Source: an uncultured Azospirillum sp.
GTDB lineage: Bacteria; Pseudomonadota; Alphaproteobacteria; RF32; CAG-239
Length of the DNA stretch: 55,052 bases
Direction: 5' to 3'
NCBI GenBank assembly: GCA_947301965.1
Contig: CAMYUM010000010.1
Span: 1-55,052 of the forward strand
The translations under genes and the position numbers were made by a program. Positions 20,153 to 20,790 of the stretch are shown in pieces; the first letter of the stretch is position 1, and each line of letters begins with the position of its first letter. The notes under the pieces are model-generated. The model made no database searches. It saw only the letters and a list, made by a program, of their open reading frames with translations, and was not told the DNA's origin.

Positions 20153-20185
20153 AAATCCCTTACCCTAACCCGGTAAGGGATTTTT
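20153..20185 (+). terminator. terminator of the YihY-type gene
   Basis: Twelve-base-pair stem AAATCCCTTACC/GGTAAGGGATTT followed by T residues, 16 bases after the stop. Confidence 0.88.
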
Positions 20186-20224
20186 CTATTGCAAAATACC
20201 GTAGGTTGTTATAGCTTGAAAACA

Positions 20225-20460
20225 GATATGTTTACACATATTCAGAACCTGTAAACGGTTCGGAGCCTTCACAAGCTCATTACCATATTCGGCGCTCGGA
20301 ATAACGTCGTCAAACAATCGTTTTGATTGTTGAATATTCCCAGACTGCGGTCTGGGAGCTTTCAGCGTATGTCCAATAACTTTTGTTTAAAGGCTGAAAG
20401 ATCATTTGATATGGTATGATTTGTGAACTCCCAGACCACTTTTCAGGTGGTCTTTTTTTA
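20225..20460 (+). ncRNA. structured leader or small RNA ending in an intrinsic terminator, upstream of an XRE gene
   Basis: No protein gene fits here, but the region is full of hairpins: GAACC/GGTTC (near 20246-20262), AACAATC/GATTGTT (near 20313-20331), CCCAGAC/GTCTGGG (20339-20345 with 20350-20356), CTTTCAGC/GCTGAAAG (20360-20367 with 20393-20400), and a terminator AGACCAC/GTGGTCT with seven T residues (20433-20460). GGTCTGGGAG (20349-20358) is also perfectly complementary to CTCCCAGACC (20428-20437). That alternative helix would invade the 5' arm of the terminator. This is either an attenuator-type leader or an independent small RNA. It does not match tmRNA, SRP RNA or RNase P RNA motifs that I know. 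A possible -35 TTGCAA lies near 20189. Confidence 0.5.
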
Positions 20461-20484
20461 TTGAACAACAAAGGAAACTGCACA

Positions 20485-20790
20485 ATGACCATATCAATCA
20501 CTCAAAGACAGCGAGGAAGACACCCTGACGGCACACCGAACAAAATTGATGTTTTTGTAGGCAACCGTATCAAACAAAAACGTCGTGAGCTCAATCTCTC
20601 ACAACAACAACTTGCTCAAAAACTGCATATCTCATTCCAACAACTGCAAAAATATGAGAGCGGACAAAACCGCATTTCTGCTAGCCGCCTTTGGGATATA
20701 TCGCAAACCCTCGACGAGCCGATCAGCTATTTTTTTGAAAACATCGATGAAAAACTGGCCCGACAAAGTCCACGCCTTTTACAGGAATAA
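20485..20790 (+). CDS. XRE-family DNA-binding regulator
   Basis: A 101-aa protein with a Cro/C1-type helix-turn-helix (GNRIKQKRRELNLSQQQLAQKLHISFQQLQKYESGQNRISASRLWDIS region, about residues 28-78). The order resembles small alphaproteobacterial XRE regulators in which IDVFVGNRI precedes the helix-turn-helix and a PISYFFE segment follows. ATG 20485 has the ribosome site AAAGGA; longer readings start inside the terminator and are rejected. The gene follows the structured leader, so its expression may be attenuated. Target genes are unknown. Confidence 0.85.
   Translation: MTISITQRQRGRHPDGTPNKIDVFVGNRIKQKRRELNLSQQQLAQKLHISFQQLQKYESGQNRISASRLWDISQTLDEPISYFFENIDEKLARQSPRLLQE

Follow-up and report, generated by a model that had tools for sequence, protein, structure and literature searches.

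A candidate cis-acting RNA switch in the leader of an XRE-family regulator gene, and its remote kinship with sRNA-Xcc1

The noncoding DNA before an XRE-family regulator gene in an uncultured Azospirillum sp. raises the question of whether it encodes a switch for that gene, a separate small RNA, or an element that acts as DNA. The locus lies in a contig stretch of 55,052 nucleotides, which is called the window below. A preliminary description had proposed a new attenuator or small RNA here.

Layout of the leader and its exclusive pairings

The folded leader RNA occupies 240 bases upstream of the regulator gene, and its parts and surroundings are as follows.

20153-20183, + strand: terminator-like hairpin that closes the upstream brkB gene, separating it from the leader
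20189-20214, + strand: putative promoter TTGCAA ... TTATAG, read from the sequence
20245-20261, + strand: hairpin P0 (GAACC/GGTTC), kept in the bacterial family and missing from the wider core
20263-20278, + strand: hairpin a:a' (GAGC/GCTC), with strand b in its loop
20268-20274, + strand: strand b (TTCACAA), partner of b' (20421-20427), forming a pseudoknot with a:a'
20281-20289, + strand: strand c (TACCATATT), partner of c' (20408-20416)
20290-20309, + strand: hairpin f (CGGCG/CGTCG), with covariation
20314-20330, + strand: variable hairpin (ACAATC/GATTGT), differing in length and sequence between relatives
20339-20345, + strand: strand e (CCCAGAC), the local partner of d and candidate anti-antiterminator
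20349-20358, + strand: strand d (GGTCTGGGAG), the putative switching segment, partner of e or d'
20359-20400, + strand: hairpin h (CTTTCAGC/GCTGAAAG), with the conserved internal loop GTATGTYCA..TAAAG
20401-20420, + strand: hairpin k (ATCAT/ATGAT), with c' in its loop
20408-20416, + strand: strand c' (GATATGGTA), partner of c
20421-20427, + strand: strand b' (TTGTGAA), directly abutting d'
20428-20437, + strand: strand d' (CTCCCAGACC), the putative antiterminator partner of d, shared with the 5' arm of the terminator
20433-20453 (stem), T run to 20460, + strand: intrinsic terminator AGACCACTTTTCAGGTGGTCT with a 9-bp stem, from the terminator scan
20470-20476, + strand: Shine-Dalgarno sequence AAAGGAA, read from the sequence
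20485-20790, + strand: XRE-family regulator of 101 aa, the putatively controlled gene (Pfam HTH_3, E=6e-16)
20488-20497, + strand: ACCATATCAA, spanning codons 2-4 of the XRE gene, with complementarity to TTGATATGGT (20406-20415) in k/c'

The putative promoter is retained in a relative (L004) and received no call in a consensus promoter scan of the window. Elsewhere, on the minus strand (window:10892-11216), a cspA thermoregulator match was found below threshold (40.8 bits, cut-off 78, E 4e-7).

The minimum free energy of the leader is -85.0 kcal/mol, compared with -51.8 (sd 4.8) in 200 dinucleotide shuffles (z -6.87), none of which equals its stability. More than five hairpins are predicted, in agreement with the five or more of the preliminary description. 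The main structure of the minimum free energy fold consists of two long-range helices, b:b' and c:c', which were absent from that description. Segment d can pair locally with e, as a hairpin of CCCAGAC (20339-20345) with GTCTGGG (20350-20356), or with d' through ten of ten Watson-Crick pairs, exactly at the positions first proposed (20349-20358 with 20428-20437). The last five bases of d' are the 5' arm of the terminator, and because d' overlaps the terminator (20433-20453), d:d' would take the outer five bases of the 9-bp stem; the earlier proposal that this pairing would break the terminator is thereby upheld, as is its placement of the terminator 25 bases before the gene (T run to 20460, start codon at 20485).

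The d:d' helix crosses both b:b' (20268-20274/20421-20427) and c:c' (20281-20289/20408-20416) as a pseudoknot, and since b' adjoins d', b:b' and d:d' could stack coaxially as an H-type pseudoknot. In nested folding, a model outside which the pseudoknot falls, the antiterminator state is 19.5 kcal/mol worse than the terminator state (-65.5 versus -85.0 kcal/mol), so that the ON state would need the pseudoknot or an effector, and the default, given this preference for the terminator, is probably OFF. The complementarity of codons 2-4 to k/c' is a single case and suggestive only of an extra translational arm; a complementarity of 10 bp was reached by 0 of 130 other downstream regions and by 14 of 5000 shuffles.

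Two further explanations for such a leader are extremely improbable. Leader-peptide attenuation could draw on a short AUG frame inside the h loop of the window copy, but relatives lack the AUG (L024, and sRNA-Xcc1 types, which have AAUACAA) and their loops differ in length without keeping the frame. 6S RNA, likewise a long hairpin, is excluded, having no match in Rfam searches.

Distribution, covariation and genomic position

A DNA search matched 27 of 90 genomes of relatives, with up to six matches per genome, and a covariance model (R1) was built from 20 of these. R1 detected copies in 128 of 152 genomes from the bacterial family to which the window belongs and in 14 of its 16 genera; several genomes have at least 16 copies. 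The family comprises small gut and rumen alphaproteobacteria, the close relatives being rumen MAGs (RUG10691, Tb.RUG.69). In an even sample of the class, R1 matched 33 of 385 genomes, the majority belonging to other families. When one copy from a larger genome served as the query of a distant search, 268 plasmid records were retrieved, with Agrobacterium, Rhizobium, Bradyrhizobium, Shinella, and Methylobacterium foremost. The element occurs on chromosomes as well as plasmids across Alphaproteobacteria; the window-type element was not found in the phage records searched. The genome of the window contains three copies, including that of the window, and the other two, both on contig C12, are diverged.

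L287:4047-4199, contig C12: diverged copy before an EcoRI-type adenine methyltransferase gene, followed by a DUF262/HNH-like gene
L287:12848-13001, contig C12: diverged copy before a sugar-transferase-like gene

At one locus (L010:1145-1810) copies stand head to tail in tandem, with a short ORF after each. The window leader is 100% identical to that of a relative (G002), an identity that we rejected as a striking feature because the flanks are likewise 98-99% identical.

Covariation within the family was assessed in 53 copies, for a structure that included the d:d' pseudoknot. Strands b and c, the e:d pairing and hairpins f and h guided the alignment; a, k and d:d' lay outside the aligning structure, so that support for the last three is unbiased. 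Across the 53 copies, 97.5% of the cells of the 42 proposed pairs are paired, 32 of the 42 pairs change on both sides, and two-sided cells number 356 versus 102 in shuffles; in slid controls, pairing falls to 37-46%. Covariation was found in 6/7 pairs of b:b' (92.9% paired), 9/9 of c:c' (97.4%), 4/5 of hairpin f (99.2%), 3/7 of the e:d hairpin (96.4%), and 8/8 of hairpin h (99.3%). Hairpin a:a' is 99.0% paired with two-sided changes in 3/4 pairs, and hairpin k, at 98.9%, hardly varies. The d:d' helix is 97.9% paired in the family and only 2/9 pairs vary on both sides; because it is mostly invariant there, part of its conservation could reflect sequence constraint. In the alignment of 56 distant copies, its pairing stands at 97.3% and two-sided cells number 14 versus 2.0 in shuffles (for example GTCGGGGTG/CACCCCGAT, GACTGGGAG/CTCCCAGTC, and TTCGGGGGG/CCTCCCGAA). 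The 10-bp helix of the preliminary description thus comes out 97-98% paired, with two-sided changes above those of shuffles, and so withstands the refutation set there, a lack of covariation. On these alignments the long-range helices covary strongly and the alternative helix d:d' modestly. A further loop helix, g:g' (GGAATA/TATTCC), was convincing by eye but finds no support on the model alignment (12-63% paired), where the region may be misaligned.

The position of the element is nearly constant. A same-strand ORF start, chosen by a simple script, lies downstream in 188 of 189 located copies, mostly 38-60 nt past d'. An intrinsic terminator whose 5' arm starts inside d' is present in 122 of 132 family copies, and the overlap is 4-5 nt in nearly all of the 122; a control terminator scan 400 nt downstream gave 3 matches. 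More than 100 copies keep the exclusive helices and the terminator overlap, almost all of them immediately upstream of a gene, and the attenuator reading of the preliminary description is thereby supported. Its mention of an XRE regulator was accurate for the window, where the gene has a clear HTH_3 domain (E=6e-16), but this is incidental, since most relatives precede other genes; an XRE gene as dedicated partner was rejected, with only a handful of copies preceding one.

Within the family, accessory genes with mostly envelope-related products follow the element: glycosyltransferases, outer-membrane barrels, surface antigens, and opacity porins, with further copies before BspA-type repeats, pilins, XRE regulators, and PD-(D/E)XK nucleases. 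Outside the family, the element is followed by genes that, judged by eye, are DNA methyltransferase-like or restriction-like, and also by traM, an AHL-synthase operon, and DUF2285 genes. On an Agrobacterium plasmid, a relative of the element (L238:3001-3226) stands directly before traM; TraM is the quorum-sensing antiactivator of Ti-type conjugation. At L050, L055, L068, L072, L141, and other loci, the downstream genes share a near-constant signal peptide (MKNxLLxTTALVA) and have very different mature parts, as though leader and signal peptide together made up one module common to variable surface proteins.

From comparison of predicted structures among these copies, we regard as established the conserved fold (a, b:b', c:c', f, h, and k), the two mutually exclusive pairings open to d, the terminator overlap of d', and the position before genes.

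Relationship to sRNA-Xcc1

At the Rfam gathering threshold the window element has no match, whether to known riboswitches, to 6S RNA or to any other family that might explain its structure, as the preliminary description had anticipated in stating that it matched no recognised class. That statement holds at threshold; through a series of linked models, however, the element connects to sRNA-Xcc1 (RF02221), the only family that recurs at gathering and relaxed thresholds across the window, relatives and distant copies. The window element itself has no direct match to RF02221. Seven relatives match the full sRNA-Xcc1 model (1-87) at the homologous position with 27-37 bits, and a second element in the genome of the window matches it with 33.3 bits, all below the Rfam gathering cut-off of 53 bits; the same second element is matched full length by R1 (E 1e-5). 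A bridging covariance model (R2), built from rhizobial-type copies, scores the window element at 79 bits (E 2e-15) and detects a dozen genuine RF02221 loci, full length and in register (best E 2e-7); 148 kb of control DNA gave no match. In the R2 and RF02221 alignments the core structure of d:d', h and k is homologous and in register between the element and sRNA-Xcc1. These cross-matches indicate that window-type elements and sRNA-Xcc1 form one superfamily, within which model comparison places the window element as a remote relative of sRNA-Xcc1, in an alphaproteobacterial branch that uses a terminator.

The likeness extends to the core d..d' domain, hairpins h and k, the A-rich internal loop, the location of c' in the k loop and of b' adjoining d', and genuine sRNA-Xcc1 loci also have an a/b/a'/c 5' domain and stand upstream of a gene. 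The alphaproteobacterial copies differ by the addition of hairpin e and a terminator overlapping d', and the Rfam and literature entry differs in being a trans-acting sRNA of 87-88 nt without the 5' domain. The novelty suggested in the preliminary description therefore applies to the terminator-driven branch and not to the superfamily, which was already catalogued, if only as an sRNA fragment. In the literature searched, no described alphaproteobacterial motif of this kind was found.

We inspected 30 loci that RF02221 detects, the majority above its cut-off. They too lie upstream of genes, encoding Bro-N, P22 antirepressor, KilA-N, Rha, and SymE proteins, and they precede antirepressor genes in phages Rac-SA53, Aaphi23, Smp131 (where the match overlaps the annotated ORF), and PhiR5_2. 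In nearly all of the loci, the a/b/a'/c domain is found upstream of the annotated 5' end. Strands b/c are complementary to the c'b' of their own locus over 8.1 bp on average, versus 5.7 when loci are crossed (p 3e-14), and c'b' to its own Shine-Dalgarno region over 6.9 bp versus 5.2 (p 6e-11); the loci are mutually related, so both p-values are optimistic. The Shine-Dalgarno region often repeats b and c (for example CCGAAAAGGAGCAACAAG at L272), so c'b' can pair there instead. In many loci among L243-L272, a terminator-like hairpin (ccgcacccgtcagac..gcggtATTTTT) occurs about 40-110 nt upstream of the RF02221 match, between the 5' domain and the annotated sRNA start.

Shine-Dalgarno complementarity is slight in the bacterial family (p 0.004) and at chance level in rhizobial-type copies (p 0.17). 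The rhizobial copies have neither platform, terminator or Shine-Dalgarno pairing, but a GCGGGGGCGYACCGC hairpin before the ribosome site, apparently a third output. In these copies a hairpin conserved at the sequence level (TGCGGGGGCGYACCGCA) lies 20-50 nt past d', just upstream of the ribosome-binding site (L095, L097, L099, L234-L242).

From Northern blot and RACE experiments, sRNA-Xcc1 was described as a small RNA of about 88 nt (PMC2996969). This detection, the strong terminator that closes the leader and the precedent of IsrK of the Gifsy-1 prophage, which occurs in two forms, one a short RNA and the other a read-through mRNA (PMC4825925), would suit a trans-acting small RNA, a promoter-to-terminator transcript of about 235 nt that acts on other mRNAs and serves the gene by read-through. 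We consider this unlikely: the spacing to a same-strand start codon falls in one narrow range in nearly all copies, the terminator arm is coupled to d' by an overlap of 4-5 nt, and the partner of c'b' in RF02221 loci is their own ribosome-binding region rather than a shared target. To judge from sequence, the genomic layout of the RF02221 loci argues for a leader rather than a free-standing sRNA of about 88 nt. The occurrence of sRNA-Xcc1 in integron cassettes, upstream of symE (PMC12444791), fits the leader reading. The same cassettes, together with copies on plasmids and in phages and the tandem arrangement at L010, could also be taken to indicate a recombination or insertion site, integron-like, whose palindromes act as DNA. 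Fixed orientation and spacing to the start codon, long-range compensatory changes and the in-register terminator are features of RNA, and a DNA-level element is strongly disfavoured and highly improbable.

Proposed switch, significance, and comparison with known systems

We think it likely that the XRE gene carries in its 5' leader a cis-acting RNA switch, an attenuator or orphan riboswitch in kind, to which sRNA-Xcc1 is remotely related. As in intrinsic-terminator attenuators, terminator and antiterminator share a strand 5' of the gene; as in riboswitches, a conserved aptamer-like fold predicted in the 5' UTR is joined to an expression platform. The direction of switching and the simultaneity of the pseudoknotted helices are what we infer from these features. 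In the OFF state, e would hold d and leave d' free, the terminator would form, and transcription would end some 25 nt short of the XRE start. When ON, the RNA would take up its full pseudoknotted fold with d:d' stacked on b:b' and c:c', the terminator would lose its 5' arm, and RNA polymerase would read into the gene. An effector (small molecule, protein or RNA) would stabilise one of the two states. Both branches can be read economically if the pseudoknotted fold is ON in each: for sRNA-Xcc1 types, the helices b:b' and c:c' would hold c'b' away from the ribosome site when ON, and when OFF c'b' would pair with the Shine-Dalgarno sequence and block the site.

The regulated genes are too varied to indicate a ligand. 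What triggers the same switch could, instead of a metabolite, be a protein or a second RNA, such as a phage or plasmid factor, Rho, Nus factors or an sRNA; we hold this as a serious but tentative option, somewhat short of even. The regulated genes are mobile or accessory (antirepressors, traM, restriction-modification, surface genes) with no common metabolic theme, and in phage Aaphi23 the element is placed after the Q antiterminator gene; against this, small-molecule aptamers are called to mind by the conserved internal loop and the several pseudoknots, and no common partner gene was identified.

Whatever its trigger, we lean, by a small degree, towards seeing the switch as one member of a widespread riboswitch-like class of leaders in Alpha- and other Proteobacteria, gating accessory and mobile genes (phage antirepressors, SymE, conjugation regulators, restriction-modification, and surface proteins). 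sRNA-Xcc1 would then be its truncated 3' domain, and one aptamer would serve three outputs: termination, Shine-Dalgarno sequestration and the third hairpin type. Hundreds of copies stand before surface, phage, plasmid and defence genes across Proteobacteria, so far recognised only as the sRNA-Xcc1 fragment, which has been discussed as a trans-acting virulence sRNA and its genome copies counted accordingly. If the reading is true, the catalogued family would be corrected, sRNA-Xcc1 becoming the 3' part of a cis-acting leader; one RNA sensor would precede genes that time the expression of prophages, plasmids, toxins, restriction systems, and surface antigens, and its trigger would expose a signal common to mobile elements across Proteobacteria.

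In pseudoknotted terminator-type riboswitches such as ZTP and fluoride, the 3' strand of a pseudoknot doubles as the 5' arm of the terminator. Strand d' of the element likewise appears to be both, although the sequence and architecture of the element differ from theirs and it has no Rfam match. A second parallel is the IsrK leader of the Gifsy-1 anti-repressor. No sequence or Rfam relation to the element was found, and IsrK acts in trans on its own read-through form, but it shares with the proposed switch alternative structures, a short terminated form beside a read-through mRNA, and a place on mobile DNA before an antirepressor operon (PMC4825925).
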